From the IMG/VR virus record IMGVR_UViG_3300000176_000967, positions 1 to 27,186 of that record: 27,186 nucleotides of DNA; one strand, 5' to 3'. Under the pieces are notes generated by a model. That model searched no databases and was not told the origin of the DNA. It saw only the letters and a program-made list of their open reading frames with translations. This DNA is from a virus. Both the position numbers and the translations under genes were made by a program. Below are positions 6,885 to 26,917 of the stretch, one piece after another (the first letter of the stretch is position 1; each line of letters begins with the position of its first letter).

Positions 6885-7487
6885 ATGAGATTATCTAGTC
6901 AATCGAGTCAGTTTGTATTTAACCTACCTTCAGATTTCTTAACACAAGATATCATAAGCACTTATACGCCTATACTTGAAAAAAACTGGGTACAATATGA
7001 AAATGTTATTGATTATTTAAACTCTACAATTAAGAGTGTAAGTTTTCCAGGATTAAGTATCACAACACCAGAACAGAATTTAATAAGAGGTAAGAAAAGA
7101 GCTTATTTACCAGCAACAAATGTGAATGATATAGTAACTACAAGAGAATTCACCGTTACATTCAGATCTGTTGATTCTGACTTGAATTATTGGCTAACAT
7201 ATGATATATTTATAAAACACTATTTAGATGTTTATAATTTATATATCAACCCATTTACTATCACCGCAGTTGATATACACAGAGATGCTATCTATTTAAT
7301 TAAATTTTTTGAGATATTAGCAATTTCACTTGGTGATTTAAAATTTGACTACTCACAACAAAAGGTAAATGCAAAAGAGTTTACAATGACTTTTAAATTT
7401 AACTTCATTGAAGTTGAATTTTTACTAAACCAATCAAAGACTATGGAATTGGGTGCTTTTCCACCATCAATTATCCAGAAATATTAA
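6885..7487 (+). CDS. Tail-tube-fold structural protein (gp19/gp54-like)
   Basis: The 200-aa product has the strand pattern of contractile-phage tube-type proteins. An N-terminal segment is followed by VSFPGLSI, then REFTVTFRSVDSDLNYWL (residues about 87-104), a long loop, and a second sheet (FEILAISLGDLKFDYS, then AKEFTMTFKFNFIEVEF near 160-178). In such proteins 'eftvtFr..ds...w' and 'gdl.fdys...kftvtF.yn' strands form the beta sandwich that polymerises into the tube or its baseplate initiator. I cannot decide between tail tube, tube initiator or another baseplate protein. It is the last plus-strand gene: its stop overlaps, tail to tail, the stop of the 74-aa minus-strand gene. Confidence 0.5.
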   Translation: MRLSSQSSQFVFNLPSDFLTQDIISTYTPILEKNWVQYENVIDYLNSTIKSVSFPGLSITTPEQNLIRGKKRAYLPATNVNDIVTTREFTVTFRSVDSDLNYWLTYDIFIKHYLDVYNLYINPFTITAVDIHRDAIYLIKFFEILAISLGDLKFDYSQQKVNAKEFTMTFKFNFIEVEFLLNQSKTMELGAFPPSIIQKY

Positions 7488-7708
7488 TCTTTTTTCTTTT
7501 TATAATAAGGGTGATCTTCTTTCTTCATTTCTACATACTCTTTACCATCTATAACAGATTCTATTTTTCTATCTCTATTTGTTACCCTAATCTCATCTTC
7601 AATAACGCCTACCATAATAGTGTCGATTATTTCAGTGTCTATAGACTTTGATAGATTTTCTGATAATATTCTCAACAACTCTTTTTCTGGATCTAATTTT
7701 TTCTTCAT
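7484..7708 (-). CDS. Small charged hypothetical protein
   Basis: The 74-aa product is highly charged (many Lys, Glu and Asp), has no membrane segment and ends in KKKKD. It probably has an N-terminal helical part (PEKELLRILSENLSKSI) and a short strand-rich middle. No family recognised. Its ATG overlaps the TGA of the GT10 gene (ATGA), so it is the last gene of the long sugar-gene operon, and its end overlaps the tail gene's stop by four bases. Despite operon membership it does not look like a sugar enzyme. Confidence 0.65.
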   Translation of the reverse strand: MKKKLDPEKELLRILSENLSKSIDTEIIDTIMVGVIEDEIRVTNRDRKIESVIDGKEYVEMKKEDHPYYKKKKD

Positions 7709-8571
7709 ATTAAATTTTTATTTTTAAATATATTCTCAAAAAAATCTAGCAGATTATTATATTGAAAATTAAATGGTAGATCAACATTTGTAAAGTGTGG
7801 TTCTGATAGTATTTTAAAATACAAGTCATCATTATTGTCAACTTCTTTTATATACTCAATCATCTGATTCATATTATCAAATTCATAAGCATTTATAAAA
7901 GCCTTTGTGTTCCAATCTTCACCAACCTTTGGATTTCCCCAATATATTGGAATACTATTTTTTAATTTAGGATGTACTAATTTTTCGGTGGTATATCCTG
8001 GATACTCACTGTTTTCAAAAGCAATTGTAAATTTGTAATTATTAATAAATGACAATTTATCACCCACTGGTCCACCTATATTATTATAAACTCTTCCACC
8101 AGCATCTACCAATTTATATTTAGAAAGTTCAAAAAATAATTGATTCCTTAAATGCGCACCTGGGTTAGAAAAAACAAAATTACAGAACTTTGTTTTTTCT
8201 CTTTTTACAACATCGAAATCTATTTCCTTTTTGAAATTTTGAGTATATCCAGACTCATATAATGTTATGGCTGATAAAGGAAATCTAAAGTTTCTATCAT
8301 CATCTATATAATCAAAGCTAATGGAATAGTCACATTCGTTATAGTTAGGTCTTTTATTTTCGGCGGTAAAAAATATTTTAGTACCATTAAATCTTTGATG
8401 ATTATTACCAAATACACTATAAATCAAAATATCAGGTGTATATGATATTTCAACATCCCATCTCTCAGATAGAATTGTATATAGTGTATTATCTCCAATA
8501 TTACTAATATTAGGGTTATAATTAAATCCGCTCCATAAATCTGAAAATCCAATTTTTATTCGTTTCTTCAT
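7705..8571 (-). CDS. GT10 alpha-1,3/1,4-fucosyltransferase
   Basis: The 288-aa product matches the GT10 family, which moves fucose from GDP-fucose onto GlcNAc or glucose in Lewis-type structures. Key stretches are FFTAENKRPNYNECDYSISF (residues 67-86), FCNFVFSNPGAHLRNQLF (129-146) and the signature FENSEYPGYTTEKLVHP (185-201), which fits the alpha-1,3-FucT motif FEN...GY.TEK, followed by IPIYWGNP. It is shorter than the Helicobacter enzymes, which carry C-terminal heptad repeats and a membrane anchor not seen here, so it is probably soluble. It is coupled by ATGA overlap to the 74-aa gene and lies six bases after a GT11 gene, so two fucosyltransferases of different linkage are co-expressed. 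Confidence 0.9.
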   Translation of the reverse strand: MKKRIKIGFSDLWSGFNYNPNISNIGDNTLYTILSERWDVEISYTPDILIYSVFGNNHQRFNGTKIFFTAENKRPNYNECDYSISFDYIDDDRNFRFPLSAITLYESGYTQNFKKEIDFDVVKREKTKFCNFVFSNPGAHLRNQLFFELSKYKLVDAGGRVYNNIGGPVGDKLSFINNYKFTIAFENSEYPGYTTEKLVHPKLKNSIPIYWGNPKVGEDWNTKAFINAYEFDNMNQMIEYIKEVDNNDDLYFKILSEPHFTNVDLPFNFQYNNLLDFFENIFKNKNLI

Positions 8572-8577
8572 AGTTAT

Positions 8578-9366
8578 TTAAATTTTAATCCATGTCTCTG
8601 GAATTATATCTGATTTATCTATATCTATACCTGTTTTTTCTCCAAACCATTTATTTGGTGCTATAACTTTTTTATTTGGGTTATTATTTAACCAAGCTCC
8701 CCACCAACTAAAAGAACTGTTGGCTATTATATTATTCTTACACATACTCATTAGATATAAATCTTCTAAGTTTGAAAAATCACTCATAAAAACCATATTA
8801 TTAAATGGTAAATTATCTTTACACCATTGCATATCATCAGAAAAAACAAAAATATAATCATATTCACCAATGATATCAAGAGCTTTTTTATAATACTCTA
8901 TATCTTGAACCGGATGATATCCATTCGATTTTACATAATCCGTTCTTCTAATATGCATAGAAACCGTATTAGTGTCAATTAGAGGTGTCTTATTAAGTTT
9001 TGATATCATATCATTAGATGGTGAGAAGTCATTCCGAATGATATCAGAATTGATTTTAAAATACTTTTCACTTTGCCAATAACCATCAAGATAATAATGT
9101 GTATAATTTGATACGAGATGTTCTTGATAACTAAATGAATCTTGTATTCTATGAATGTGGTAATTATTTAATACCGGTATATTTACATAAGTATAAGTAT
9201 TTGAAAATTTATCCAACTCAAATTCTCTAATGGTTTCTGAAAATTGGTTTTTATAAAAAGATATATCTAAATAGAAATCAGTATTATATTTATATGATAA
9301 GCTTCTACCATAAGCATACTGAAACATTTGATTTCCTAAACCACCTTGAATCTTATTGATAATCAT
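8578..9366 (-). CDS. GT11 alpha-1,2-fucosyltransferase
   Basis: The 262-aa product starts with the family opening GGLGNQMFQYAYGRSLS (residues 8-24). It has an intact GDP-fucose-binding motif His138-x-Arg140-Arg141-x-Asp143-Tyr144 and the C-terminal SSFSWWGAWL motif near residue 217. These are the hallmarks of GT11 enzymes, which add fucose in alpha-1,2 linkage (or make O-antigen fucose branches) from GDP-fucose. It is full length for the family. This is the most canonical of three GT11 proteins in the window. Its start overlaps the end of the upstream SDR gene by four bases. No GDP-fucose synthesis genes (gmd, fcl) are in the window, so the donor must come from the host or from genes outside. 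Confidence 0.92.
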   Translation of the reverse strand: MIINKIQGGLGNQMFQYAYGRSLSYKYNTDFYLDISFYKNQFSETIREFELDKFSNTYTYVNIPVLNNYHIHRIQDSFSYQEHLVSNYTHYYLDGYWQSEKYFKINSDIIRNDFSPSNDMISKLNKTPLIDTNTVSMHIRRTDYVKSNGYHPVQDIEYYKKALDIIGEYDYIFVFSDDMQWCKDNLPFNNMVFMSDFSNLEDLYLMSMCKNNIIANSSFSWWGAWLNNNPNKKVIAPNKWFGEKTGIDIDKSDIIPETWIKI

Positions 9367-10127
9367 TCTTTTGTGTAATTTTTAATAAAGTTTTTTAAAT
9401 CCTCTAAGACTTCTTTTTTACTATATAAATATCCACTCACAGATAGTCCAGTCTTATAGTCATATATAATGTTATCACCTTTAATTAAGTTATTAGAAAT
9501 ATTACTAAATAGGGAAGTTATTTCTTTTGTACTAATTGGTTCATTAAAGAAATTAAATATCATTTTATTAGGATATTTAGAGCTATATTTTTGAATATCT
9601 AAATAAATATTATCAAGGTTATACCATTGAAAGCTTGAATTTATATTAATATCCCATTTTGTGTTATTTAACAAATCGAATAAAATATTCTTTTTTATTC
9701 GATTATTAAATAGAGCACCTAGTCTAAATATTTTTAAATTATCATACTTCAACATATCCTTAACCATAAGTTCAAATAAGTATCTATTACTACCATAATC
9801 TAATTGTCCTAAATTTGGCAAATAATTTTCAGTAACACCAAGAGGTGAATTTCGATAAACATCTATTGTGGAAATAAGAGTTATTTGTGAGTAAGATTTT
9901 CTTGATAATGTTCTAATGATATTATTAATATTTTCAATATCTTGTGTAATATTTTTATTAACAAACATTCTATTGGAAGATAAACAACTTAAAAATAAAT
10001 TGTCACCATTCTCAACATATTTATCAAAATCATTAATATTTTGACTATTAAAACAACAGTCAAAATTGACAAATTTACTTATAGTAGATCCTACTAATCC
10101 TGTATGTCCAATTAAAATATTATTCAT
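9363..10127 (-). CDS. SDR-type NAD(P)-dependent epimerase/reductase-like protein
   Basis: I place the start at the ATG at 10127 (254 aa): a longer frame to 10157 begins with GTG and overlaps the DUF5672 gene by 38 bases, whereas the ATG puts the Rossmann motif at the N-terminus (MNNILIGHTGLVGSTI). A strand ending LISTIDVY gives the usual Ser/Thr. The catalytic Tyr-x-x-x-Lys position reads Tyr111-Gly-Ser-Asn-Arg115, so Lys is replaced by Arg. Extended SDRs of this kind reduce or epimerise nucleotide sugars such as dTDP-4-keto hexoses, but the altered motif makes activity uncertain. It sits between a GT11 gene and a DUF5672 gene in the operon. Confidence 0.7.
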   Translation of the reverse strand: MNNILIGHTGLVGSTISKFVNFDCCFNSQNINDFDKYVENGDNLFLSCLSSNRMFVNKNITQDIENINNIIRTLSRKSYSQITLISTIDVYRNSPLGVTENYLPNLGQLDYGSNRYLFELMVKDMLKYDNLKIFRLGALFNNRIKKNILFDLLNNTKWDININSSFQWYNLDNIYLDIQKYSSKYPNKMIFNFFNEPISTKEITSLFSNISNNLIKGDNIIYDYKTGLSVSGYLYSKKEVLEDLKNFIKNYTKE

Positions 10128-10824
10128 AACTTCTATATTGTGCGTTATTCTCACCACCTTGAAAATTGTGGAAGCAAAATGGTTTTATATCACCATATTC
10201 AACTCCATCTAAAGTTTTTAAAGTTCTCTTACCATTTTCACCAAAGCTTTCAACCAAAACTTCTTCATGTGAAAAGTATTTAGCTACATCAAAAGGTGCA
10301 AATTTTATACCATGATGTAAAAATAAATTCCTATTCCAAATACATATTTGAGCATCTTCATTGTAATTACCATCATAAGGAATCCAAGGCATTTTATATT
10401 TGTCTGGAATTTCCATTAATTTTTTACTTCTTATAGATATTCCATTTCCAACTTTTATCGGTTCACCATATCTATCATAGAAACAATTGAATCCCCATGG
10501 TGCTCCAATATAATCATAGTCTAAAAAATCATCACGCCACATTTCAGGATTAACAACATATCCATCACTTTGTATTTGAAGTGCAAAATCAGTATCAATA
10601 TATTTGTATAACTCATATATAACAAATCGATTATACTCAACAATATCCATTTTTGGAACCTTTACTACTTCTATACCTTCCGCTTCTACATCAACATCAG
10701 TGAATAGTTTAACTGCACCAAAATTAATTCCTCTACATGACTTTTTTATTGCTAAAATAGTCTCTTCTAGTCGAATTGATGTGACACTAACTAATGTTAT
10801 ATTAGGTAAATCTATCTTAGACAT
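10120..10824 (-). CDS. DUF5672 family protein, putative glycosyltransferase
   Basis: The 234-aa product fits DUF5672: NITLVSVTSIRLEETILAIK at the N-terminus, YNRFVIYELYKYIDTDFALQ, then IQSDGYVVNPEMWRDDFLDY and DYIGAPWG, then VGNGISIRSKKLM. The Asp-rich QSDG stretch sits where a GT-A enzyme has its DxD metal site. The late motif APFDVAKYFSHE is shared with the second DUF5672 protein at 21389-22036, a clear paralogue. The family occurs in glycan-synthesis clusters and is thought to be glycosyltransferase-like; donor and acceptor are unknown. It overlaps the upstream GT11 gene by eight bases. Confidence 0.85.
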   Translation of the reverse strand: MSKIDLPNITLVSVTSIRLEETILAIKKSCRGINFGAVKLFTDVDVEAEGIEVVKVPKMDIVEYNRFVIYELYKYIDTDFALQIQSDGYVVNPEMWRDDFLDYDYIGAPWGFNCFYDRYGEPIKVGNGISIRSKKLMEIPDKYKMPWIPYDGNYNEDAQICIWNRNLFLHHGIKFAPFDVAKYFSHEEVLVESFGENGKRTLKTLDGVEYGDIKPFCFHNFQGGENNAQYRSYE

Positions 10825-11596
10825 AAATAAATTTTTTACTTTTTATCTCACAAGGAAACCATCCCTTTTCTGGTTTATCGTAGTATATCCAATACATCGG
10901 CGCAACTGTGATATATTTATCCGTTAACCAAGCTGCCCACCAAGAATAAGTAGATGGTGAGATTATACAATACTTTGAAAAGTATAAAAGTTTTAAATCT
11001 ACCATCATATCATTTGAAATTATCTCACAATCAACATCTTTAAATACTTCTTCTGCTTTTGGTATTTCTTCTGTGATAACTAAAAACTTGATATCAGGTT
11101 TTATTTCTTTTATTTTATCCATCGCATCTAAATAAAATTTCAACGAAATATATGTCTGACCTTCACCGAAAACATATACCCTAAAATGTATATAACAATA
11201 CTCTTCTACTGGATATTTCAATAGTAATTCAGAAGTTTTATCATCAGCTTCTAATTTAAACCATTCTTTTATTTTATCCTCATATCCTTCAAAATATCTT
11301 TCTGTTTGATAGTATCCATATAATCTTGTGAAATTTGGAGCATTAAAAAGATTTGGATCAAAATATTGACCAGGATTCTCATTATAAATATATTGTAAAT
11401 TACCATCAATCTTTCCTCTTTCAAGATTTGGAAAAAAGTTAAATATGTGATGTGATGGATCTTCAGGATGTGGATGTGGTAATTCATTTACTTGTGGTAA
11501 ATAAAATTCATATCCATTTTTTTCAGCTACGATTCTTGCTATAGCATATTGAAACATCTGATTACCTAACCTACCTCCAAATGAACCATGTATCAT
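10817..11596 (-). CDS. GT11-like fucosyltransferase with degenerate donor motif
   Basis: I choose the ATG at 11596 (259 aa): the longer frame to 11659 starts with TTG inside the upstream gene and adds a run of hydrophobic residues unlike the family. From 11596 the protein opens with MIHGSFGGRLGNQMFQYA, the GT11 signature. The C-terminal YSWWAAWL block is also kept. The donor motif HxRRxDY reads His-Phe-Arg-Val-Tyr (IHFRVYVFG), so the second Arg and the Asp are missing. It may use a different donor or have altered activity. The start lies one base after the stop of the epimerase gene, so they are coupled. Confidence 0.85.
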   Translation of the reverse strand: MIHGSFGGRLGNQMFQYAIARIVAEKNGYEFYLPQVNELPHPHPEDPSHHIFNFFPNLERGKIDGNLQYIYNENPGQYFDPNLFNAPNFTRLYGYYQTERYFEGYEDKIKEWFKLEADDKTSELLLKYPVEEYCYIHFRVYVFGEGQTYISLKFYLDAMDKIKEIKPDIKFLVITEEIPKAEEVFKDVDCEIISNDMMVDLKLLYFSKYCIISPSTYSWWAAWLTDKYITVAPMYWIYYDKPEKGWFPCEIKSKKFIYV

Positions 11597-11597
11597 T

Positions 11598-12530
11598 TTA
11601 GTTATTATTAATTTTATAATTTGAAAGAGAATCCCAATTATTTTTAAGATAATCTTCAATACATTTAACTCCCTTTTCTAAATCAAAGTTGATTTTATAA
11701 TCTAATACTGAATTTAGTTTTGAAAAGTCAACTTTATAATCTCTTGGGTCATCGAAATCTACGTATTTAACTTCAAAGTCTAGTCCACACTTTTTTAGAT
11801 TATTAACAATGTCTCTTTTAGTGAAATTTAGTGATTCTTCACCTATATTATAAACACCTTTTAAATTCTTATTCATTGCTTGAATTATAATATCACAAGC
11901 ATCATCTACATATAAAAACGGCCTCCATGTCTCCTCACCAAAAACACTGATATATCCATCTCTCATTCCTTCATAGATAAATTGATTAATTGTTAAATCA
12001 ACTCTCATTCTATGAGATACACCAAATAATGTAGAACACCTGAGAATTAAATAACTCTTTGAATTTTCTATTATATAGTTTTCAGATTTAATTTTAGAAT
12101 CTGAATACATACCTAATGGATTTAATTCAGAATCTTCATTTACAACTTCTGTGTTTTTTCCATAATTAGAACAAGTACTTAAAAATATAAATTGCTTATT
12201 ATTTTGATTACAAATATCTGATATAAATTTTGTTGATTCTGTATTGATATTATAAACATTTTCTTTTGTAGTTTTTTTACAAGCAGGTTCACCGACTAAT
12301 GCGGCTAAATGTATCACAACATCATTACTATTTATGACCTCGTTTAATTTATTAAAATCAGTTACATCACCAATTACTAATTTATAATTTGGATTTTTAA
12401 GAAATGCCTGACATCCAGAATCTCCATACATCAGGTTATCATAGACAGTTACGTGATGATTTATATCAAGTAATTTTTCGGACAACTTAGATCCGAAAAA
12501 TCCAGCTCCTCCAGTAATTAAAATATTCAT
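11598..12530 (-). CDS. NAD-dependent nucleotide-sugar epimerase/dehydratase (extended SDR)
   Basis: The 310-aa product is a complete extended SDR. It has GGAGFFG at residues 7-13 for NAD binding, Asp31 at the end of the second strand, LAALVG after the fourth strand, Ser118-Thr119 and the catalytic Tyr142-x-x-x-Lys146 (MYSDSKIKSE). RPFLYVDDACDII is the usual sugar-binding stretch. GalE, UDP-glucuronate decarboxylase and dTDP-glucose dehydratase all share this plan, so the exact reaction cannot be fixed; the 'TWRPFLYVDD' region is typical of GalE-like and reductase-like sugar SDRs. Its ATG overlaps the TGA of the dehydrogenase C-half (ATGA at 12527-12530), so the two are co-translated and may act in one nucleotide-sugar pathway. 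Confidence 0.88.
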   Translation of the reverse strand: MNILITGGAGFFGSKLSEKLLDINHHVTVYDNLMYGDSGCQAFLKNPNYKLVIGDVTDFNKLNEVINSNDVVIHLAALVGEPACKKTTKENVYNINTESTKFISDICNQNNKQFIFLSTCSNYGKNTEVVNEDSELNPLGMYSDSKIKSENYIIENSKSYLILRCSTLFGVSHRMRVDLTINQFIYEGMRDGYISVFGEETWRPFLYVDDACDIIIQAMNKNLKGVYNIGEESLNFTKRDIVNNLKKCGLDFEVKYVDFDDPRDYKVDFSKLNSVLDYKINFDLEKGVKCIEDYLKNNWDSLSNYKINNN

Positions 12531-13105
12531 TTAGAGTCTCCTATTTTTATTAATTTTATATTATTTTGTTCCTTAATATATCGCCAAGGGTCTATTACAA
12601 CCGAACCCTCTGGAAACTTATAATCTAAAAAGATATCATGGTTTGTACCTATAAAAAATATACTTGGTGTATCTAAAGTAAAAGGATCCGTGTCAACCCA
12701 AGGATCATACATCATGACTTGTGATTCTTTTTCCTCTAATATATTTTTTAGTAGAATAGATGGACTACCTAATATAAGATTAGTTTCTTTTTTAAAGGTT
12801 TTTCCCAAAATAACTATTGGTAAATCATTTTTACTCTTCTCTTCTAAAATTAAAGTTGATAACCATTCAGTTTGTTTTTCCCTACACTCCATTAAATTAT
12901 CATACCAGTTAAAGCTTAGGTCTACTTTATTTGCAAGCCATGATAAAGCAATATTATCTCTTGGATGACAATTGTGAACTACTATACCTGTATCACTATC
13001 AATATAAAATTGGTCATCTTTTTTTTCATGAAATGGTTCTACTTCTAAATTATATACATATCCTTCATATTTCTCAATTTCAATTTTTGTTATTCTATCT
13101 TTCAT
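12527..13105 (-). CDS. C-intein plus C-terminal half of a UDP-glucose/GDP-mannose dehydrogenase
   Basis: The 192-aa product has two parts. Residues 1-45 are a C-terminal split-intein fragment: VYNLEVE (block F) and GIVVHN (block G) ending in the His-Asn needed for asparagine cyclisation. Residue 46 is the +1 cysteine of the C-extein, which begins CHPRDNIALSWLA, the catalytic-Cys segment of the nucleotide-sugar dehydrogenase family. The rest is the family's C-terminal NAD-side domain (GKTFKKETNLILGSPSILL, then MMYDPWVD). It lacks the N-terminal Rossmann domain and is inactive alone. Splicing in trans with the product of 13943-15055 would restore the enzyme. The start lies three bases after the homing endonuclease stop; the end overlaps the epimerase start. 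Confidence 0.92.
   Translation of the reverse strand: MKDRITKIEIEKYEGYVYNLEVEPFHEKKDDQFYIDSDTGIVVHNCHPRDNIALSWLANKVDLSFNWYDNLMECREKQTEWLSTLILEEKSKNDLPIVILGKTFKKETNLILGSPSILLKNILEEKESQVMMYDPWVDTDPFTLDTPSIFFIGTNHDIFLDYKFPEGSVVIDPWRYIKEQNNIKLIKIGDSK
12971..13105 (-). other. Split intein, C-fragment (45 aa)
   Basis: Codons 1-45 of the C-half gene. It has block F (YEGYVYNLEVE) and block G (GIVVHN) directly before Cys46, whose codon is 12970-12968. The length and an own start codon close to block F match known split C-inteins such as those of phage gp41 or NrdJ (about 35-45 aa). Confidence 0.92.
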
Positions 13106-13108
13106 ATT

Positions 13109-13909
13109 TTAGCATATTTTTATACCCAAATTTTTTAGGTCCTCTTTAAAAAGAATTTGTATCTTATTGTTATTACTTTTTAATATTTCAAATTTACGAC
13201 TCTGTCCTATAAATGTATAGGTTGATTTTATATCAACATATACATTCCAATTATATACAAAAAAATCTGGATAATAATTCTTACATTTACCCTCGTCATC
13301 TATATATGGTATCTTACCCCTATGACATTCAAAAGTTAAATTATTTTTATCCAACCACTCGATGAATTTTAATTCCCATGTTCCTTGTACTTTATATACC
13401 TTACCACTCGAATGTTTATAATCATACCATAAACATTTCCAACAATTATTCACACCAATGAATTTACCATCTTCCCAAGCCTTCTTAGTACCATTTGAGT
13501 ATTTCTTCCTCATACTTAAAGTCATTCCTTCTGATCTTGTTTTAGAAACTTTATTTCTTATTTCTAAACTTTTCATGGGATTTTTATCACCCGATATATC
13601 AACTTTTGATCTTATCAAATCCGACATTTCCTTTCTCTTATCTTCCGACTCCCATATTTTTTTCAAAGCCAATTTCATTTTTTCAATCTTTTCCGGCCTT
13701 CTATTTAGAATCAACCTCCAGCAAATATTACAATAATCATTAGAAAATAATTCATTTTCTTTCATTTTTTTATATTGATTTAGAGATCTTTCATGTATAA
13801 TATCACACTTATCACACTTGAGTTTAAGTATTTTTTCATTTCTATTAATAACTTTATCTAACTTTTTATCAAAATATTGAGTGTTCAGGTTTAATTTTTC
13901 AATTATCAT
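13109..13909 (-). CDS. Freestanding homing endonuclease inside the fractured dehydrogenase gene
   Basis: The 266-aa product has two CxxC pairs (Cys32/Cys35, Cys60/Cys63) forming a likely zinc finger. A basic helical DNA-binding segment follows, with a NUMOD-like GDKNPMKSLEIRNKVSKTRS at 107-126. The C-terminal nuclease domain has Glu179 in GTWELKFIEWLDKNN, then YYPDFF with Asp215 and VDIKS with Asp226 and Lys228, a PD-(D/E)XK-type site also seen in Vsr-like phage homing enzymes. It lies between the intein halves exactly where a cis intein would carry its endonuclease domain, but has its own start and stop, 33 bases after the N-half and 3 before the C-half. It most likely cuts intein-less copies of this dehydrogenase gene and so spreads the whole arrangement. 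Confidence 0.85.
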   Translation of the reverse strand: MIIEKLNLNTQYFDKKLDKVINRNEKILKLKCDKCDIIHERSLNQYKKMKENELFSNDYCNICWRLILNRRPEKIEKMKLALKKIWESEDKRKEMSDLIRSKVDISGDKNPMKSLEIRNKVSKTRSEGMTLSMRKKYSNGTKKAWEDGKFIGVNNCWKCLWYDYKHSSGKVYKVQGTWELKFIEWLDKNNLTFECHRGKIPYIDDEGKCKNYYPDFFVYNWNVYVDIKSTYTFIGQSRKFEILKSNNNKIQILFKEDLKNLGIKIC

Positions 13910-13942
13910 ATCTTATATATTAAAAATAGAAGACACCCTCCA

Positions 13943-15055
13943 CTATAACACATAAAACTTATCATCATTTCTAATTTCAATTGCTTTTACTAGAATTAAT
14001 TTTCCATTTCTTTCCACTGGAACTATATGATCAGTTGTCAAGCTTATTTTTTTACCACTCTCTGTTGTGAAATTTATCATATCACCGATATAATGTCTTC
14101 TAGTTACCTCGTTTATCTTTTTTTGATTTTTTGTATTACATGTGTAGTTACATGAGTCAACAAGATATGTAGATTCATCATCAAATGAATTATACAATTC
14201 ATCAATTTGAACAATATCATTATTTACCTTTACTTTAAATGTAGGCTTAACACAACCACCACCATCACCCATACCACCTAATAAATACTTAGGACTCATA
14301 AGTCGCTCATTTGCTAAAAATAATCCTCTCATAACATTATCACAATTAATATTATCCAATTTATGTGATAACTCCATTACAGTGTTTGCTAAGCAAACTT
14401 TCATAGTTATATAAGTGTTATAAGTTACTTTTATCATCTCAGCTTCTTCTATAGTACATTTATAAACTGGTTTATTATGTATTGTTGCATAGAAATCTTT
14501 AACATATTCATAAGCATTATCATCATCTACGCCAAACAAAACAAATTCTGGAGATACAAAATCTCTAATGGTTGTACCCATTGCTATAAAGAAAGGATTA
14601 TAACATAACTTAACATGATTATTTAATAGTGGTTTAATTTCCTTTCTTATTGTCCCTGGTAAAACAGTTGAAATAATAACTACTATTTTATCTATTCCCT
14701 GTTTTTGTATTTCATCTGATAGATTCTTCATACCTTGTTTCAGCCAAGTATAATCAAAATCAACTCTTTCTTCTGGTATTCTAGTATCTCCCTCATATTT
14801 TGGTAAGTGTGGAGTTTGGATAGGAACAAAAATAATATCAGATTTTTTTACAACATCCGAAATACTTGACCAAATTATATTATTATCAACCAAAAGTTCC
14901 TCAGCTCCTTCTTCTCTATAAGGCAGCTTTTTGTTGACTAAAATATCTTTAACGTTTTGATTGATATCAAAACCAAATACTGTGTGTCCTCTTTTTTCTA
15001 TAGCTAAAGCACACGGTAATCCTAATTTACCAAGACCTAAAAATCCAATATTCAT
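13943..15055 (-). CDS. N-terminal half of a UDP-glucose/GDP-mannose dehydrogenase plus N-intein
   Basis: I choose the ATG at 15055 (370 aa); the longer frame to 15079 begins with TTG and overlaps the methyltransferase gene. The N-extein is 267 aa: a Rossmann motif MNIGFLGLGKLGLPCALAI, the central dimerisation helix region (YNTYITMKVCLANTVMELSH) and LLGGMGDGGG, the start of the active-site loop. In the family this loop continues straight into the catalytic Cys. Here Cys268 instead begins an N-terminal intein fragment of 103 aa. The joined product of this gene and 12527-13105 would be about 414 aa, normal for enzymes that oxidise UDP-glucose, GDP-mannose or UDP-ManNAc to the uronic acid with two NAD. 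The exact sugar is not decided. Confidence 0.92.
   Translation of the reverse strand: MNIGFLGLGKLGLPCALAIEKRGHTVFGFDINQNVKDILVNKKLPYREEGAEELLVDNNIIWSSISDVVKKSDIIFVPIQTPHLPKYEGDTRIPEERVDFDYTWLKQGMKNLSDEIQKQGIDKIVVIISTVLPGTIRKEIKPLLNNHVKLCYNPFFIAMGTTIRDFVSPEFVLFGVDDDNAYEYVKDFYATIHNKPVYKCTIEEAEMIKVTYNTYITMKVCLANTVMELSHKLDNINCDNVMRGLFLANERLMSPKYLLGGMGDGGGCVKPTFKVKVNNDIVQIDELYNSFDDESTYLVDSCNYTCNTKNQKKINEVTRRHYIGDMINFTTESGKKISLTTDHIVPVERNGKLILVKAIEIRNDDKFYVL
13946..14254 (-). other. Split intein, N-fragment (103 aa)
   Basis: Starts with Cys (codon 14254-14252) in CVKPTFKVKV (block A). It contains the block B Thr-x-x-His as LTTDHIVPV, and ends at a TAG at the place where cis inteins carry their endonuclease domain. 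Together with the 45-aa C-fragment it has all four splicing blocks with intact nucleophiles. Confidence 0.92.
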
Positions 15056-15065
15056 TTTTTCATTT

Positions 15066-15665
15066 TTAATTTTTTTCAAAGATAACTAATACATCATCAT
15101 ATCTTCCTTGTACATTTCTCAGATCTACTACTTTTGGTGAAAATGGCAAAAAATGTGTAATGTTTTGTTCTAAGTTAGCAAAGTCTTCAATTATATAAAG
15201 ACCTCCTTTATTTAACTTTTGTATCATAGTTTGATAAGTACTATACTGATCTTGTATAGTATGACTAGCATCATCTATAATTATATCAAATGTTGTATCT
15301 TTTATTTCAGACATGACTTTTTGTGTATCGTTTATATCTGAAAAAATCATATTCACTTTTTCAATACCTTCAAACCAGGTTAGATTTAAAGGGTCAATAT
15401 CTATTCCAAATATTTGACTATCTTGATGGAAATAGGTCTTCCACATATGAAGGATCCAGCCACCTGAAATTCCTATTTCAAGAAAGTTAATTGGTCTGTC
15501 TTGATATTTACTAAAATAATATTCATATGTGTCTATAAAGCTATGTACACTACCTTTGTCAACATCGTATTGAGTTGTATTTCTCTCACCATTAGTACCT
15601 GGTTCTTTTCCAGTATATTGTCTAATGTAATTCAGAGTTATTTCTCTTGCTTCTTTAAGGTTCAT
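15066..15665 (-). CDS. Class I SAM-dependent methyltransferase
   Basis: The 199-aa product has the SAM-binding motif FLEIGISGGW (residues 61-70), an acidic residue at the end of strand 2 in FGIDIDP (86-92), DIIIDDASH at 127-135 and GGLYIIEDF after strand 5. The pattern, with DDASH and EDF, resembles sugar O-methyltransferases such as the MycE/cephalosporin-hydroxylase-like group, in which these Asp/His residues bind a metal. Its place in a glycan operon fits O-methylation of a sugar. It lies two bases after the Gfo/Idh stop and just before the dehydrogenase N-half. Confidence 0.82.
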   Translation of the reverse strand: MNLKEAREITLNYIRQYTGKEPGTNGERNTTQYDVDKGSVHSFIDTYEYYFSKYQDRPINFLEIGISGGWILHMWKTYFHQDSQIFGIDIDPLNLTWFEGIEKVNMIFSDINDTQKVMSEIKDTTFDIIIDDASHTIQDQYSTYQTMIQKLNKGGLYIIEDFANLEQNITHFLPFSPKVVDLRNVQGRYDDVLVIFEKN

Positions 15666-15667
15666 AA

Positions 15668-16393
15668 TTAGTTTATATTTTTTACTTTTTCAGTTAAGCT
15701 TAATGTACTTAATGTCAACTTCTTATTAAATTCATAATCTACTTGATTATTGATAATTTTTAAAATAGACTCTTGTAAAGGATCATTCATTGGATTGGAG
15801 AAATCAATTACATGACCATCAATAATTATCCTTTTTTCTTTTCCATCATAATTCCTATCATATTTGAATGTTGATATCATGTTACCATTTATCATCTCCA
15901 TATCTAAATCGTCCTTCGTATAGCTACATTTTGTTATTTCCCATTCATCACTAGTTAAACTCAATAACATATAAATATCATGATATAAAAGTCTATCTAA
16001 TATACTTTCTTTGTTTTTATCATATTTATTCCAAATGAAACTGATATTACTAATTTTTTTGTCAATATTCATGAATTCAGTTCTATATAAAAAGGTATTA
16101 TCAACAAATATTTTAACTTTATTAAGTGATAGTTGATATATCTCTTTTGCTTTAGAAAAATCACCAGTAAACGGCTTTTCACAAAAGACATTCTTATTAT
16201 ATTGAATACATTTTTTAAGTATATTATAATGAGTTTCTGTTGTTGAACAGATGAATACCCAATCAATATCTTTTTTTAATAATTCATCTAAATCACTTTT
16301 AGAATTTGCAACATATAATAGATTAGTCAGTGATTGTAACTTTGGTTTTATTATATTACCCCAATATCCATCTCCTATTAATAATGTTGTCAT
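15668..16393 (-). CDS. Gfo/Idh/MocA-type oxidoreductase
   Basis: The 241-aa product starts with a Rossmann fold (TTLLIGDGYWGNIIKPKL) and has the family's EKP motif at Glu72-Lys-Pro (VFCEKPFTGD), where Lys is catalytic. It is clearly shorter than the usual 320-380 aa: the C-terminal beta domain is reduced but still ends with a plausible helix. Members oxidise or reduce sugar hydroxyls at C3 or nearby on nucleotide sugars, which suits its place beside the dehydrogenase and epimerases. Substrate unknown. The ATG overlaps the TGA of the FAD oxidoreductase gene. Confidence 0.82.
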   Translation of the reverse strand: MTTLLIGDGYWGNIIKPKLQSLTNLLYVANSKSDLDELLKKDIDWVFICSTTETHYNILKKCIQYNKNVFCEKPFTGDFSKAKEIYQLSLNKVKIFVDNTFLYRTEFMNIDKKISNISFIWNKYDKNKESILDRLLYHDIYMLLSLTSDEWEITKCSYTKDDLDMEMINGNMISTFKYDRNYDGKEKRIIIDGHVIDFSNPMNDPLQESILKIINNQVDYEFNKKLTLSTLSLTEKVKNIN

Positions 16394-17454
16394 ATCATTT
16401 TTTTAATATCTTCAGCAATTTTCCAACAAGTTGTTATTTTACCAGACAAAATGCTGATAACTTTTATATTATCGACACAATTAAAAGTTATATCACTCAT
16501 TCTAGAATCATCTTCGTTTATTGGTAGTGCTCTGATTGTTTGCCAATATCCATCAGGCTCACAATCTTTTAAAAAGGAATAATATTTTATAGACTCATCA
16601 TATATTTTGTCAATTTTTTTACTTATAATAATTTTATCATAAATATTTTTCTTAAAAAATTTGTTCTTGATTATTTTTTTTTCAAGCTCCCACATACCTG
16701 AAATATTATATCCTTCCGATTGACAAATAACAGAGTTTCTAACATGATATAATAAAAAATAATTATCATCAAATCCTTTTGGCATTATACTACAATATTT
16801 ACCATCCATTATTGTTAACCCAATTTTATTCATATTCTTTCTAAATATTGGTATAACCACATTTTGAAACCTCAGAGTGGACTCTGGTAGATTGAATAAC
16901 CTATTTATCTTATTTATATTAAAATAAGATGCGTTTATTACAACATCATAACCATCAACATCTGACTTATTTTGAAGTGTTTTATTCAATATTAGATTTA
17001 TAGTGGATTTACAAATCATGTTTTTTAATATCTTTTTAAGTGTCTCATAGTCATAAACTGGTTCATTGGTTAGAAAGGAGGAATCTATATTTGAAAAGTC
17101 CATATCTATTTTAGGATATTCCTCCACAATTTTTAGACTCAATTTGTTACAAAAGTCGGAGTAATCAGAAGAACTCACCTTACTATTTTTTTCAACCATG
17201 TAATAGTTTGGAAAATTATCTACAACCGAATCTTTGAAAATTTGATGAAAAGATTTAAAACCTTCTATACTCTGAATAGCAGTTTCAATACTCCTTGGAT
17301 AATGAAACCCAAAGTGGAGTCTATTATGATTAAATTTAGATGCATTCAACATAATGTCATCATTGCTATCAATTAGTGTAACTCTATTCGACTCAGATAA
17401 TTTTAATGCAGTACAAATTCCGAATACTCCAGCTCCTATAACCAATATATTCAT
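16390..17454 (-). CDS. FAD-dependent oxidoreductase (DAO family)
   Basis: The 354-aa product begins with the dinucleotide-binding motif MNILVIGAGVFGICTALKL and an acidic residue at the end of strand 2 (VTLIDSND). Asn-His-Asn-Arg and HFGFHYPRS follow, as in D-amino-acid/2-hydroxyglutarate-oxidase-like flavoproteins. The C-terminal stretch ISILSGKITTCWKIAEDI matches the second FAD-contacting region (usually 'v.Ggk.T..p.lA'). Most family members oxidise small amines or hydroxy acids; a role on a sugar or amino sugar is inferred only from context. It is coupled by a four-base overlap to the Gfo/Idh gene. Confidence 0.82.
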   Translation of the reverse strand: MNILVIGAGVFGICTALKLSESNRVTLIDSNDDIMLNASKFNHNRLHFGFHYPRSIETAIQSIEGFKSFHQIFKDSVVDNFPNYYMVEKNSKVSSSDYSDFCNKLSLKIVEEYPKIDMDFSNIDSSFLTNEPVYDYETLKKILKNMICKSTINLILNKTLQNKSDVDGYDVVINASYFNINKINRLFNLPESTLRFQNVVIPIFRKNMNKIGLTIMDGKYCSIMPKGFDDNYFLLYHVRNSVICQSEGYNISGMWELEKKIIKNKFFKKNIYDKIIISKKIDKIYDESIKYYSFLKDCEPDGYWQTIRALPINEDDSRMSDITFNCVDNIKVISILSGKITTCWKIAEDIKKMI

Positions 17455-17482
17455 TAAATTATTTAATTTTTAGTTTAACAAA

Positions 17483-18077
17483 TTATGGTCTCCAAAGACC
17501 TATGCCACCCCAATGTTCAGAAAATTCACCTGATTTTATTTTACCACTTGATTTTGAACAAACTATCTCAACTTTAGATCCACCTTCTATATCACACCAA
17601 TGTTTATATACTTGGTCATCATAAACATTATTTGGATCTATATCATGAAAAACAACATATCCTCTATTGGAAAGTAGTTTTTTATACAAATCAAAATCTC
17701 TTTTAACACCATCATAACTATAATCTTCATCAATAAATATCAAATCATAATTATCACAATAAGATCTCACATTTTCAAAAATTTCTTCTGTTTGTGAATT
17801 ACCACAAAAGAATTGATATTCCTCTTCCATTACTCGGTTTAATATTTCACCGACAATAGGATCAATATCAACCGAAACTTTTTTACCTGTAGATAATTTA
17901 GAAACAGTCCAAAAGGTTGCACCTGATCTAGTTCCTATCTCTAAAATATTATTGGGTGAAAAGCCTTTTCACCCAATATAAATATGTTAGGAACTCTTCA
18001 TACACTTGTAATATTGTCTCTATTTGACCATTTTCTTTTTTTCTTATATACTCTTCAATTAATTCTATTGGTTCCAT
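17483..18077 (-). pseudogene. Class I SAM methyltransferase broken by a one-base frameshift
   Basis: Reading from the ATG at 18077 gives MEPIELIEEYIRKKE... up to FLTYLYWVKRLFTQ and a TAA at 17975-17973. If one T is ignored in the TTTT at 17966-17969 the frame continues as RLSPNNILEIGTRSGATFW, the SAM-binding motif, then VSVDIDP and DLIFIDEDYSYDG to the stop at 17483, making a normal methyltransferase of about 197 aa. The upstream reading also fits the family (EE-L-x-L-hydrophobic-K-x-L-x-P-x-x-ILEIG). Starting at the internal ATG at 17830 would delete the SAM site, so it is not a real start. Explanations are a true mutation, a +1 programmed shift at CUU-U, or a sequencing error. Confidence 0.8.
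17950..17978. repeat. Perfect 13-bp palindrome at the frameshift site
   Basis: Arms 17950-17962 and 17966-17978 are perfectly complementary around the loop GCC. The methyltransferase frame breaks in the four-T (minus-strand) arm. Without the extra base the arms would be imperfect. Confidence 0.85.
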
Positions 18078-18085
18078 TTTATTAT

Positions 18086-18754
18086 TTATTCTTCATATTC
18101 AAAAATTTTCCACATCATTCTTTCAAATACATGTGGCATACTATAGTCCATCCAACTTTTATAAGTCGGAAATCCAAGTGTTTTCAAATGTGCTGCATCA
18201 TGATTTGGTATTACTTTACTTGGGTCTGGATTTTCTTGATAACAGTCGTATCCATAATTACAAGCATTCTTATAAACATCATAAATATTAATCCACCAGT
18301 TAAGTGATTTCTTCATAAGAAAATCGCTTTGTAAAATATATTGGTCTCCTGCTGAGAAAAATAGCTCTTCTTCTCTTACAACACTTGATTTGAAAACAAG
18401 AGGTATAAAATCATTTAAATATATCTGACCAGCAGAACTATAAACATCACCAAGTGGTTGTATACCATATTTATCATAGCTATTAATTTGTTCCACTATC
18501 GTCGGACAATGTGGGAATGGATCACCTTGTAAAAAAGCAATCACTTCTGGGTAGTTACCATAATAATTAATGATATACTCAAAGTATGTACCTTCTCCCC
18601 TCCACTTATTTTCTAAATAGACTGTCTCGAGACATTTTGAACCAAAATCTCTTTCAATAGGAAGCCCCTTATTATAAACAATAAAATTACAATCTAATCT
18701 ATCTACCCAATTAATATCCTCTTGATATCTAGCTATTAAGCAAACTTTCTCCAT
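18086..18754 (-). CDS. DUF3431 family protein, putative glycan enzyme
   Basis: The 222-aa product fits DUF3431: an N-terminal strand with an Asp (VCLIARYQEDINWVDRL), IVYNKG, then EGTYFEYIINYYGNYPEVIAFLQGDPFPHCP (residues about 54-85), which matches the family's 'YL.hI...Y..LPd...FlQG.p..H' signature, then a conserved YILQ...W region. The family is found in fungi and in bacterial or viral sugar clusters and is suspected to be glycosyltransferase-like; no reaction is established to my knowledge. The start overlaps the end of the fusion gene by 26 bases, an unusually long overlap, but MEKVCLIARY is the natural N-terminus. Confidence 0.8.
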   Translation of the reverse strand: MEKVCLIARYQEDINWVDRLDCNFIVYNKGLPIERDFGSKCLETVYLENKWRGEGTYFEYIINYYGNYPEVIAFLQGDPFPHCPTIVEQINSYDKYGIQPLGDVYSSAGQIYLNDFIPLVFKSSVVREEELFFSAGDQYILQSDFLMKKSLNWWINIYDVYKNACNYGYDCYQENPDPSKVIPNHDAAHLKTLGFPTYKSWMDYSMPHVFERMMWKIFEYEE

Positions 18755-21344
18755 CTAATTGATTTATTTTTACATATTCGTTCTGAATATCCTTTATTGA
18801 TATAAATAAAACACCTTTATCAATTAATTCTTGATTATTTCTCTTAATATCCTCAAAGAAGTTCCAAGCTAATACAATAATAACTTTCGGTAAATTTTCA
18901 AAAGCATATTCTTTACTTTGTATAGGTATATTCACACCAGGTATAATTTTTCCTACTTTTAATTTATTATCCTCAATAGTATAATCAATAAATGAGTTAT
19001 CAATACCAAAATAGTTTAAAGCAGTTGTAGCTTTTGCTGGTGAACCATAAGCAGCGATTCTACCAAATTTAGATTTTAATAAACTTGCGTTTTTCACAAC
19101 ATTATTCTTTATTGAGTGTAATCTTTTAGAGAATAGTTTATAAGTTTCATTTTTTGATATACCAAAATCTGCCTCTCTTAACAAGAATTCCTGAACACTA
19201 TTATCGGTGTTTTTTTGTTGTAAATCCATGTTTCTTCTTACATAAACTCTAATGGAACCACCATGTGTATTAATATGTTCAACTTTGTATAAACATAAAT
19301 TCAAATTATTAAAGAAATTATTTAATGAAGTTACAGACCAATAATTTACATGCTCATGGTAAATATTATCAAAAGTCATGTCCTTAATAGTATCTAACAA
19401 ATATTGAACTTCAATAATAAAAGAACCATTATCTTTTAATAATTCAAAAGATTGATTAGCTATGTTCACAAGTTCATCAGAGTGAGCGAAAACATTAGAA
19501 GCGGTTATTATATCAGCTTTTCCCTTAGTACTTAATATTTTTGAAACAACATCTTCATTAAAATAAGAATTAATTGTTTCCACACCATTATCATTAGCAA
19601 TCTTAGCGACATTTTTAGCTGGCTCAACTCCAATTACTCTAACTCCTCTATCTTGTAAAGGCTTTAAGAATACTCCATCGTTACTACCAATATCAACTAC
19701 CAAAGAACCACTATCTAAATTAAATTGTTTTATGTAATTATCAGCAGCTTCCTCGAAATGCTTTCTAAATGATGCAGCTGTTGATGAAACGTATAAATAA
19801 TTGTCAAACATTTTAGTAGGTGGTACTACATAAGAAAGTTGTACATTTTGACATTTTTGACAACGTTTAATTTCTAAAGGATACATTTCAGTTTTTTCCT
19901 CTAAATTGTCTAATAAATTATTAGCTAAAGGTGACATACCTAAAGAGACTATATCAACTAAATCATCACTACCACAAGATCTGCAATTTGTTTTATAATT
20001 ATCAATTAAGCTTTTTCTAAAATCTTCATCAACTAATACATAAGGTATAGTATGTGTGATGCCATAATTTTCATGCTCTCTTTCTCCTCTCACTAAATTT
20101 AAGAAAATAGAATCTTCTAAAAACACCATAGTATGTGCTACATTTGGACGAATTACAGCTATGTCACCAGCTTTAATAATTCGTGTTTCTAATTTAGCAT
20201 TAGGATCAGCAAGATCTTTTATAACACTAATGTATTTACCCTTAACCAATAAACACTTCTGCTCTTGTATTGGGTGATAATGGTTAGCTCTTACCGTACC
20301 TGATTTAGATTCAATATAACCGATTAAATTAATTGGTTCGGTTAACTCATAGTTAGAGATTTTACCTCTACTATCAATATATTCCTTACCACCTTTTTGA
20401 ATATATTCGAGAGCATCTGGTTGTTCCTTTTCACTCCAATTTCTAATCATTTCTTCTATCGAACTTTCGATGTTATATAAAAATTTAAATCCAGTAGAAA
20501 GTAATTTCTGATTCGATAATGTATATCCAAGATTAGGTATTTCATCATTTGTTTCAATTATATTAACACTTGGATTATAGTTTTTACATATTTCAGCCAC
20601 ATTTTTAATAGTCATATTTTCATTTGTTAAATGAAATGTTTCTCTACTAATATTTGAATCACCTAAGAACTTCATTGCTCTAACCACATCTATTAAATTA
20701 ACTAAACTTTTATACTGAACACCACCAGAAAAGAGACTGATAGTTCCATTTTGTGATGCAATTTTAGAGAATAGATTAGGCATAATATTAATTCTCATAG
20801 TATCTGTTGAATATCCATAAACAGATCCAAGTCTAACTATTACATAGTTTAAATTAGACTCTTTTAAGTCCATTTCTGACTGGACTTTACCATTTGAATA
20901 TGTAAGAACTGGACAAGTTGGTTCGTCTTCTTTTATATCAAATTTAGTTTCACTAAATCCTTCATAAACAACGTGTGTAGATGGAAATACAATTTTACAA
21001 TTATCAGGGATGTATTTTATTACATTTCTAGTACCATCAATTCCGTAAGCTTTTATTTCATTATCTTTTTCTACATTTAATTGAGTTTTAGTATACGCAA
21101 CATCAGTAACACCAGCAAGGTGATAAACTAAAGTAGCATCCTCTAAAATTTGACTCATTAACTTCTCATCTAAGATACTACCTTGAATAAAAGTCATTCC
21201 CCAATCAGTAATTTGTTTAACTCTTTCTGAAACAAATCTTGAGTCCATGACAACTATGTTTTTAAATCTAGCTTCTCCTGAATAAATTTTACACAACTCG
21301 GTTCCTATATAACCAAGACCACCTGTGATAACTATTTTTTCCAT
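18729..21344 (-). CDS. Trifunctional sugar enzyme: SDR epimerase, cupin and C-methyltransferase
   Basis: The 871-aa product joins three domains. Residues 1-305 form an extended SDR: GGLGYIG at 8-14, Ser122-Thr123 and Tyr149-x-x-x-Lys153. Residues about 325-445 form a cupin with RANHYHPIQEQKCLLVKGKY and a later His404 (NVAHTMVF), like sugar 3,4-ketoisomerases or 3,5-epimerases. Residues about 450-871 form an NDP-hexose C-methyltransferase of the TylCIII/TcaB9 type: zinc cysteines Cys454/Cys457 and Cys495/Cys498, SAM motif VVDIGSNDG near 549-557, the YHEHVNYWS segment and the C-terminal YGSPAKATTALNYFGI and AWNFFEDI blocks. Together they could turn a 4-keto nucleotide sugar into a C-methylated, epimerised deoxysugar. 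These are usually separate proteins. Confidence 0.88.
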   Translation of the reverse strand: MEKIVITGGLGYIGTELCKIYSGEARFKNIVVMDSRFVSERVKQITDWGMTFIQGSILDEKLMSQILEDATLVYHLAGVTDVAYTKTQLNVEKDNEIKAYGIDGTRNVIKYIPDNCKIVFPSTHVVYEGFSETKFDIKEDEPTCPVLTYSNGKVQSEMDLKESNLNYVIVRLGSVYGYSTDTMRINIMPNLFSKIASQNGTISLFSGGVQYKSLVNLIDVVRAMKFLGDSNISRETFHLTNENMTIKNVAEICKNYNPSVNIIETNDEIPNLGYTLSNQKLLSTGFKFLYNIESSIEEMIRNWSEKEQPDALEYIQKGGKEYIDSRGKISNYELTEPINLIGYIESKSGTVRANHYHPIQEQKCLLVKGKYISVIKDLADPNAKLETRIIKAGDIAVIRPNVAHTMVFLEDSIFLNLVRGEREHENYGITHTIPYVLVDEDFRKSLIDNYKTNCRSCGSDDLVDIVSLGMSPLANNLLDNLEEKTEMYPLEIKRCQKCQNVQLSYVVPPTKMFDNYLYVSSTAASFRKHFEEAADNYIKQFNLDSGSLVVDIGSNDGVFLKPLQDRGVRVIGVEPAKNVAKIANDNGVETINSYFNEDVVSKILSTKGKADIITASNVFAHSDELVNIANQSFELLKDNGSFIIEVQYLLDTIKDMTFDNIYHEHVNYWSVTSLNNFFNNLNLCLYKVEHINTHGGSIRVYVRRNMDLQQKNTDNSVQEFLLREADFGISKNETYKLFSKRLHSIKNNVVKNASLLKSKFGRIAAYGSPAKATTALNYFGIDNSFIDYTIEDNKLKVGKIIPGVNIPIQSKEYAFENLPKVIIVLAWNFFEDIKRNNQELIDKGVLFISIKDIQNEYVKINQLDGESLLNS

Positions 21345-21388
21345 TTATATTATCTTTTTTTTATTTTATGAAAATTATTTCTTTTAGT

Positions 21389-22036
21389 TTAGTAAGTCAT
21401 ATTATATTTACTCCACTTTCCATGAAATCCAAAAGGCACTATACCTTGTGTCTCAGGCATTTCAGCTTCATGTGAGAAGTATTTAGCCACATCAATTGGT
21501 GCAAAATTACAACCATGACTCTCAAAAATGTGTCTATTGTGAACAGAAAAAAATCCGTCCTCATTAAAATATCCAAAGTAAGACTTCCATTCTAAATTTA
21601 ATATTGAAGGCAATGATATTAGCTTTTTACTTCTGAAGGAAAATCCACCATTACCAACTCTAATTATGTTATTAAATGGATCTCTACAACTAAAACTGTC
21701 AGTTGGCATATCCCAAGGAGCACCTATATAATCATACTTAAAGAAGTCATCTCTCCATTGTGTTGGATTAATAACATATCCATCATCTTGAATAATCAAT
21801 AGATAGTCAGTTTCTATATACTTATGTAGTTCATAGACAATAAATTTATTATATTGTTCATAATCAAGATTATTAATTTTAATAGTCTTTACTTTATCAT
21901 CAAAAATATCTTGTGATGTAATTAACTTAGCATCATAAAAATCAATTCCAGACATTGATTTTTTAATAGCATTTAAAGTTTCAATAACTCTAACACAAGC
22001 TACTGAAACAATTGTTGTATTTTTTAAATCTACCAT
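21389..22036 (-). CDS. DUF5672 family protein, putative glycosyltransferase (second copy)
   Basis: The 215-aa product is a paralogue of the protein at 10120-10824. It shares TIVSVACVRVIETLNAIKKS, YNKFIVYELHKYIETDY, IQDDGYVINPTQWRDDFF, DYIGAPWD, VGNGGFSFRSKKL and APIDVAKYFSHEAE in the same order. The Asp pair in QDDG is closer to a GT-A DxD site than the QSDG of the other copy. The two differ most in the middle loop (TDSFSCRDPFNN versus CFYDRYGEP), where an acceptor or donor might bind. It lies two bases after the upstream methyltransferase gene and 44 bases before the fusion gene. Confidence 0.85.
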   Translation of the reverse strand: MVDLKNTTIVSVACVRVIETLNAIKKSMSGIDFYDAKLITSQDIFDDKVKTIKINNLDYEQYNKFIVYELHKYIETDYLLIIQDDGYVINPTQWRDDFFKYDYIGAPWDMPTDSFSCRDPFNNIIRVGNGGFSFRSKKLISLPSILNLEWKSYFGYFNEDGFFSVHNRHIFESHGCNFAPIDVAKYFSHEAEMPETQGIVPFGFHGKWSKYNMTY

Positions 22037-22037
22037 A

Positions 22038-22649
22038 TTATTTTATAATTTGAATATTACCATCATTATAGTAATTTATTAATCCTGTTCCCCAAGTGTG
22101 TCCTATATCAGTTATATCATATTTCTCAACATTAATAGAGTTCCACCATGTCTCCATCATTGGTGACCAAGGTAGATGTATATCATCACAAAGAACATAT
22201 CCTTTATAACCAATTCTTGTTAACATATCGGTAAACTTCCACTCTTGTGTAGCGTCATGTGCAATATCTAAAAATATAATTTTTGCAGAATTAATTACGT
22301 CACTTGACTCGTCATTTATATCCATCTTTTTAAATTCTAAATTTGGAAAATTTGCTGAAAATGGAAATTCCCAAATATGTTCGATATCGTATGATATAAT
22401 TTTGTTTTTAGGATTTTGTGATAAGGCGATAGCAGAATCACCCCAGTTAGTGCCAGCATCTATTATTACGATATCATCAAATAACATAGTTAAATAAGTT
22501 AGTAACTTATAGTGTTCTCCTCCTGAATTTGATCGTTTGTCAGAAAAGTGATGTGTGTCATCCAGAGGATTTGGATATCCTGGAAAATCATAGTTTTTCA
22601 TGTAGCTATGTGTGCTAATCTCACGTATTTTTTTATAATCAATAATCAT
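22038..22649 (-). CDS. Class I SAM-dependent methyltransferase-like protein
   Basis: The 203-aa product has a SAM-site-like motif IIDAGTNWGDSAIAL (residues 62-76), an acidic strand-2 end (ISYDIEH) and IIFLDIAHDATQEW after strand 4, the position where related small methyltransferases have Asp and His for metal. YVLCDDIHLPW follows strand 5. Rather than the usual Glu-x-Gly the motif reads Asp-Ala-Gly, which is tolerated in many members. The N-terminal 50 residues (FPGYPNPLDDTHHFSD...GGEHY) are probably the acceptor-side lid. A sugar O-methyltransferase role is inferred from the operon. Confidence 0.75.
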   Translation of the reverse strand: MIIDYKKIREISTHSYMKNYDFPGYPNPLDDTHHFSDKRSNSGGEHYKLLTYLTMLFDDIVIIDAGTNWGDSAIALSQNPKNKIISYDIEHIWEFPFSANFPNLEFKKMDINDESSDVINSAKIIFLDIAHDATQEWKFTDMLTRIGYKGYVLCDDIHLPWSPMMETWWNSINVEKYDITDIGHTWGTGLINYYNDGNIQIIK

Positions 22650-22667
22650 AAATTTATTTTATTTTTT

Positions 22668-23645: not shown

Positions 23646-23648
23646 TTT

Positions 23649-24554: not shown

Positions 24555-24555
24555 A

Positions 24556-26213: not shown

Positions 26214-26214
26214 A

Positions 26215-26916: not shown

Positions 26917-26917
26917 A

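Follow-up and report, generated by a model that had tools for sequence, protein, structure and literature searches.

Genes that are fractured by a split intein and carry an intervening endonuclease were reportedly described by Dassa et al. in 2009. In those genes, which are of phage-like metagenomic origin, the host gene lies in two open reading frames, the intein is split at the usual endonuclease position and a free endonuclease reading frame is placed between the halves. The same organization is found in an IMG/VR virus record of 27,186 bases (IMGVR_UViG_3300000176_000967; G+C 27.8%), which was analyzed over its whole length and is termed the window here. In contrast to the 2009 genes, the host gene of the window encodes a nucleotide-sugar dehydrogenase of the UDP-glucose/GDP-mannose type, which is fractured directly before its catalytic cysteine, and this one codon is seen in several stages, being empty, filled by a contiguous intein, lacking the endonuclease or carrying a swapped one. 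It is highly probable that a mobile gene-fracturing element has been inserted before the cysteine codon, and that homing spreads the element and trans-splicing restores the dehydrogenase.

Both the gene and the insertion point have precedents. An intein allele termed 'udp' is known from the UDP-glucose 6-dehydrogenase of Halobacteria, Methanocaldococcus, Dictyoglomus and others (PMC4071816). It shares with the window the enzyme family and the position directly before the catalytic cysteine, reading GxGGS/C ... HN/CFPKD (slashes mark the junctions). Matches to VHN-CFPKD in GTDB species genomes had the intein end directly before CFPKD, within a sugar-dehydrogenase-like frame, in 58 of 60 cases, and about 40 of the matches also had a visible GxGGS/C start; a simple LAGLIDADG pattern found none among these genome inteins, a pattern too strict for the result to be meaningful. 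The 'udp' inteins are contiguous, mostly about 450-480 residues long from Cys1 to Asn, and form one open frame with their host, whereas the phage form consists of two proteins with stop and start codons between them, about 148 intein residues in total and a separate endonuclease gene. Contiguous inteins of archaea and bacteria thus have long occupied this gene at exactly this site, and neither the gene nor the site is new; in the phage form the intein is split and brings a separate endonuclease gene. The initial annotation, which was made from the sequence alone, had presented the dehydrogenase as an unfamiliar host. This does not hold for the gene and the site but may stand for the split phage form, as no report of inteins in a phage sugar dehydrogenase was found in the open-access literature, which is weak evidence of absence with the 2009 host list outside its coverage.

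A split intein directly before the catalytic cysteine

The dehydrogenase is encoded on the minus strand in two open reading frames, with a third one between them. The N-half (13943-15055) specifies 370 residues, comprising 267 extein residues and a 103-residue N-intein, and the C-half (12527-13105) specifies 192 residues, comprising a 45-residue C-intein and 147 extein residues. The N-extein (residues 1-267; 14255..15055) contains the NAD-binding and central domains and ends in GGMGDGGG; it starts with the ATG at 15055, and an alternative in-frame TTG at 15079 is possible. Cys268 of the N-half is Cys1 (codon 14254-14252) of the N-intein (13946..14254), which is followed by the stop codon at 13945-13943. 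The C-intein (12971..13105) ends in GIVVHN, and the C-extein with its stop codon (12527..12970) begins with the cysteine of CHPRDN (codon 12970-12968), which is both the +1 residue and the cysteine of the catalytic loop. All parts of the fractured gene that the initial annotation had named are thus present.

The proposed Cys-initiated N-intein with a TxxH block B, here TTDH, scored 34.2 bits against NCBIfam TIGR01445 (cut-off 24.5), and its splice residues align with those of relatives. The C-intein scored 20.2 bits against TIGR01443 (cut-off 15.6). All features of a class 1 intein occur in the window, namely Cys1, block B TTDH, the VVHN end and the +1 Cys. When joined, the two halves match the Methanocaldococcus jannaschii MJ0781 (KlbA) intein (2jmz/2jnq) over nearly its full length (3e-10 for 2jmz); unlike the window intein, that of MJ0781 is contiguous, resides in another host and is related by distant sequence identity only. 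The N-intein alone, used as a search query, returned only an identical 58-kb contig. An intron in place of an intein was considered and rejected, as Rfam gave no match in the window and the intein profiles fit.

Alignment of the joined exteins, the check that had been suggested along with the annotation, raised the family scores. Against TIGR03026, the N-half scored 144.8, the C-half 35.0 and the join 192.7 bits, and the curated cut-off of 189.8 was passed by the join only. PF00984 rose from 41.5 bits in the N-half to 57.6 in the join and PF03721 scored 85.9 and 85.1 bits, all over cut-off, with PF03720 reaching 27.8 bits on the join, just below its cut-off of 30. Among relatives of solved structure, GDP-mannose dehydrogenase 1mfz matched best, its score increasing from 77 to 104 bits, and Cys268 of the joined protein falls on the cysteine of the 1mfz loop (gggChprd over GGSCLPKD), which agrees with the assertion that one cysteine serves both as +1 nucleophile in splicing and in catalysis. 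The joined protein has the anticipated 414 residues; its computed mass is 47.4 kDa and not about 46 kDa. All equivalog models for the substrate scored far below cut-off for the joined protein. The two halves very probably undergo trans-splicing after translation, and dehydrogenase activity may depend wholly on this reaction, a dependence that the annotation had stated too firmly.

A different outcome would be an enzyme of two subunits, in which the halves fold non-covalently into an active dehydrogenase and the intein remnants serve as passive tags or association handles. Enzymes encoded by genes in pieces that work unspliced are known, PMC3322345 citing a T4-like nrdA with mobE, and intein halves bind each other tightly. 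Such an arrangement is nevertheless judged very unlikely, because all of the chemical splice residues are conserved, which is more than binding alone needs, and because the unspliced catalytic cysteine would bear the C-intein on its amino side, within the active-site loop.

Alleles at the insertion point

When profiles of the endonuclease and of the C-half were used for searching, 85 rows of loci were obtained, and a model of each of the five parts was run against them. An uninterrupted gene with 69-78% identity was present in 12 viral loci (L002-L013; 69-77%) and in LR756502, a 642-kb uncultured phage record. The junction loop reads GGMGDGGGCHPRDN in all 12 viral loci, with zero residues gained or lost. 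This agreement is far beyond chance and bears out the intact active-site loop that the annotation had predicted for the joined exteins.

The same codon is occupied in several other ways. L062 carries a contiguous mini-intein of 154 residues without an endonuclease; in a model of this contiguous protein the dehydrogenase fold agrees with 1mfz (Z 24.4), the intein part being too low in confidence for use. A split intein together with the same endonuclease is found in the window, L016, L017, L018-L021, L024, L026, L028, L030, L069, L070 and copies of these, and split inteins with nothing between the halves are found in L063 and L073. In the latter two loci, the bases before the C-half start are TAGGAATTAAATT or nearly so, the sequence with which the endonuclease gene of L017 and L028 ends at its 3' side; they may represent a deletion scar, retained because the C-half has its ribosome-binding site there. 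In L079-L084 the codon is occupied by split inteins whose homing endonuclease is of another kind (phrog_314 at 2e-11). By eye, the N-terminus of this enzyme (L079, 1635-2531; also L080-L084) appears GIY-YIG-like. The fracture also affects a second subfamily of dehydrogenases, in which CFPKD or CLPKD replaces CHPRD; its position is unchanged and the endonuclease is of the same family (L041, L043, L046). In L047 (2694-4377) and L048, an uninterrupted gene of this second kind has a same-family endonuclease directly downstream, possibly a free-standing stage of the cycle.

An empty allele is also carried by the cultured Synechococcus phage Bellamy (MF351863, 180081-181283), whose gene is 60% identical to the N-extein of L030 up to the insertion point and could serve as a target in laboratory tests of homing. 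Metagenomes are the only known source of the split form, since zero matches among 50,697 phage records reached into the intein. That the fracture is an assembly or sequencing artefact might be suspected for a metagenomic contig whose exact twin comes from the same population, yet the same order of parts recurs in diverged viruses from many samples, with all frames open, and this explanation has next to no probability.

Mobility and selection

Comparison of L028 with L030 separates the history of the insert from that of its host gene. Synonymous divergence (dS) of the two extein pieces is 3.2 and 2.2, values above 2 being saturated and read simply as old, as against 0.50 for the N-intein, 0.36 for the endonuclease and 0.24 for the C-intein, and DNA identity steps close to the intein edges. 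L041 and L046 agree with this pattern, with proportions of synonymous differences (pS) of 0.80 and 0.88 in the exteins and 0.49, 0.40 and 0.68 in the insert. As the insert of L028 and L030 is far younger than the flanking exteins, the whole block appears to home and the gene to be fractured in one step; the sequence comparisons show that N-intein, endonuclease and C-intein move as one block. The reverse is seen for L017 and L028, where identity is 84-88% between the hosts and about 50% between the inserts, suggesting that the element arrived twice. The window exteins fall in a supported clade (100/100) with eight empty alleles, L062 and L024, and the window endonuclease pairs with that of L024 (support 100/99). 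Variation in the DNA around the junction is mostly at third codon positions, a pattern to be expected if the element targets a loop whose protein sequence is fixed.

Ratios of nonsynonymous to synonymous divergence (dN/dS) in the insert parts are 0.04-0.08 for L028/L030 and 0.16-0.25 for window/L024, and 0.04-0.27 over all parts with the extein pieces included. Values this low indicate purifying selection, under which the endonuclease is kept along with the two halves of the intein. Cys1, the block B TxxH, the HN end and the +1 Cys are retained in 15 of 15 distinct loci with both halves, block B of L043 being TPCH in the alignment. In the N-intein of L024 (3-341), TSDQ replaces TxxH, with Gln for the block B His, and splicing of this intein may be lost or altered.

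These data bear on the possibility of a relic, in which an intein was invaded by an endonuclease, lost its ability to splice and left both halves of the gene to decay. A gene in pieces and the Gln of L024 would fit such decay. The low dN/dS in every part, the exteins among them, the retention of the splice residues across the 15 loci and the persistence of the endonuclease-less split alleles L063 and L073 with intact halves all speak against it, and a relic is regarded as highly improbable.

The endonuclease and its spacer

The third reading frame (13109..13909, minus strand, 266 residues) accounts for the intervening endonuclease, which the initial annotation had named only as part of the known pattern; this gene and the related loci furnish the strongest evidence. 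It matches phrog_945 (endonuclease) at 1.2e-6 and consists of an N-terminal CxxC...CxxC region, a helical middle and a C-terminal PD-(D/E)xK-like nuclease domain. Cys32, Cys35, Cys60, Cys63, E179, D215, D226 and K228 are invariant across 14 relatives, with the nuclease motif reading D215 ... D226-x-K228. For the C-terminal domain as predicted (residues 158-264), the closest structural match is TnsA (Z 9.3, 104 residues, 2.3 Å), with Vsr at Z 6.1 and I-Bth0305I at Z 5.9, lower scores of a size that can come from a common arrangement; the TnsA and Vsr matches were obtained from a second-look structural aligner only. The enzyme likely belongs to the restriction-endonuclease-like, PD-(D/E)xK superfamily. 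The endonuclease family of the 2009 genes is cited as EDxHD/Vsr-like in PMC12350094. With I-Bth0305I/EDxHD and Vsr enzymes the window domain shares the predicted restriction-endonuclease-like fold, but its invariant residues follow the PD-(D/E)xK motif and its best fold match is TnsA, so that it is not clearly Vsr-like.

The endonuclease gene is separated from the N-half stop codon by a 33-base spacer (13910..13942, minus strand) with a predicted short hairpin and a U run. Its folding energy is -9.3 kcal/mol, compared with -4.4 +- 2.7 kcal/mol for shuffled sequences, and a consensus scan of 11000-16500 for a terminator after the N-half gave none. Intron endonucleases of T4 are controlled by a late promoter and a hairpin. 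Reminiscent of this, the spacers before the endonuclease in L069 (2829-2890) and L070 (3122-3185), as well as L020 and L026, contain TATAAATA or GATAAATA and fold into a hairpin over an AGGAG ribosome-binding site. In the window, the T4-type late promoter TATAAATA was discarded as a candidate, its 13 sites against 11.6 expected being at chance level.

Proposed mechanism and implications

The block, which runs from the N-intein and its stop codon through the endonuclease gene to the start codon and C-intein, would have been inserted as a unit before the catalytic cysteine codon. The endonuclease would cleave uninterrupted alleles within the conserved active-site sequence, and repair from the fractured copy would insert the entire block, turning one gene into three. 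The intein halves would then bind each other and, by trans-splicing, link GGMGDGGG with CHPRDN so that the 414-residue dehydrogenase is restored, and it is because of this presumed reaction that the insertion would be tolerated by the phage. As the +1 nucleophile of splicing is also the catalytic cysteine, escape by mutation of the site is hardly possible, and a loss would have to be precise to be tolerated. The restored dehydrogenase would serve the neighbouring glycan-synthesis genes, which fill about 20 kb of the window (7484-27184) as a dense minus-strand cluster of GT11 and GT10 fucosyltransferases, epimerases, methyltransferases and DUF5672. The cluster suggests that glycans are made or altered by the phage itself. 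The first kilobases of the window encode a single-strand DNA-binding protein and an RNA-ligase-like protein.

Several points weigh against this mechanism. Splicing, cleavage and expression are all deduced from sequence, and the unspliced halves might complement each other non-covalently. The endonuclease fold comes from a model built on 4 rows with a mean predicted confidence (pLDDT) of 73, and Foldseek with this model gave nothing under E 0.001. The 58-kb contig, which is 100% identical to the window over 10.9 kb, is the same population and not an independent observation. For the window lineage, the block may have been lost from the empty relatives instead of gained by the window.

The fractured gene itself is real and well supported, a new member with an unusually complete evolutionary series and an anatomy that was already known. 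A broader proposal is given an even chance: that these loci form a phage element family in which the mobile unit is the whole fracture, a TnsA-like PD-(D/E)xK homing endonuclease is new to split inteins, and the cycle at one catalytic-site codon runs through empty, contiguous, split with endonuclease, endonuclease-swapped and endonuclease-deleted states. The loci supply a type of homing endonuclease worth testing and a set of diverse natural split inteins with Cys+1 for protein ligation. They also provide evidence at the level of DNA for joint homing, in which a split intein travels as one block with its stop and start codons and its endonuclease and fractures a gene in a single step, and they represent the stages of the invasion cycle at one site that has likewise long harboured inteins in archaea and bacteria.

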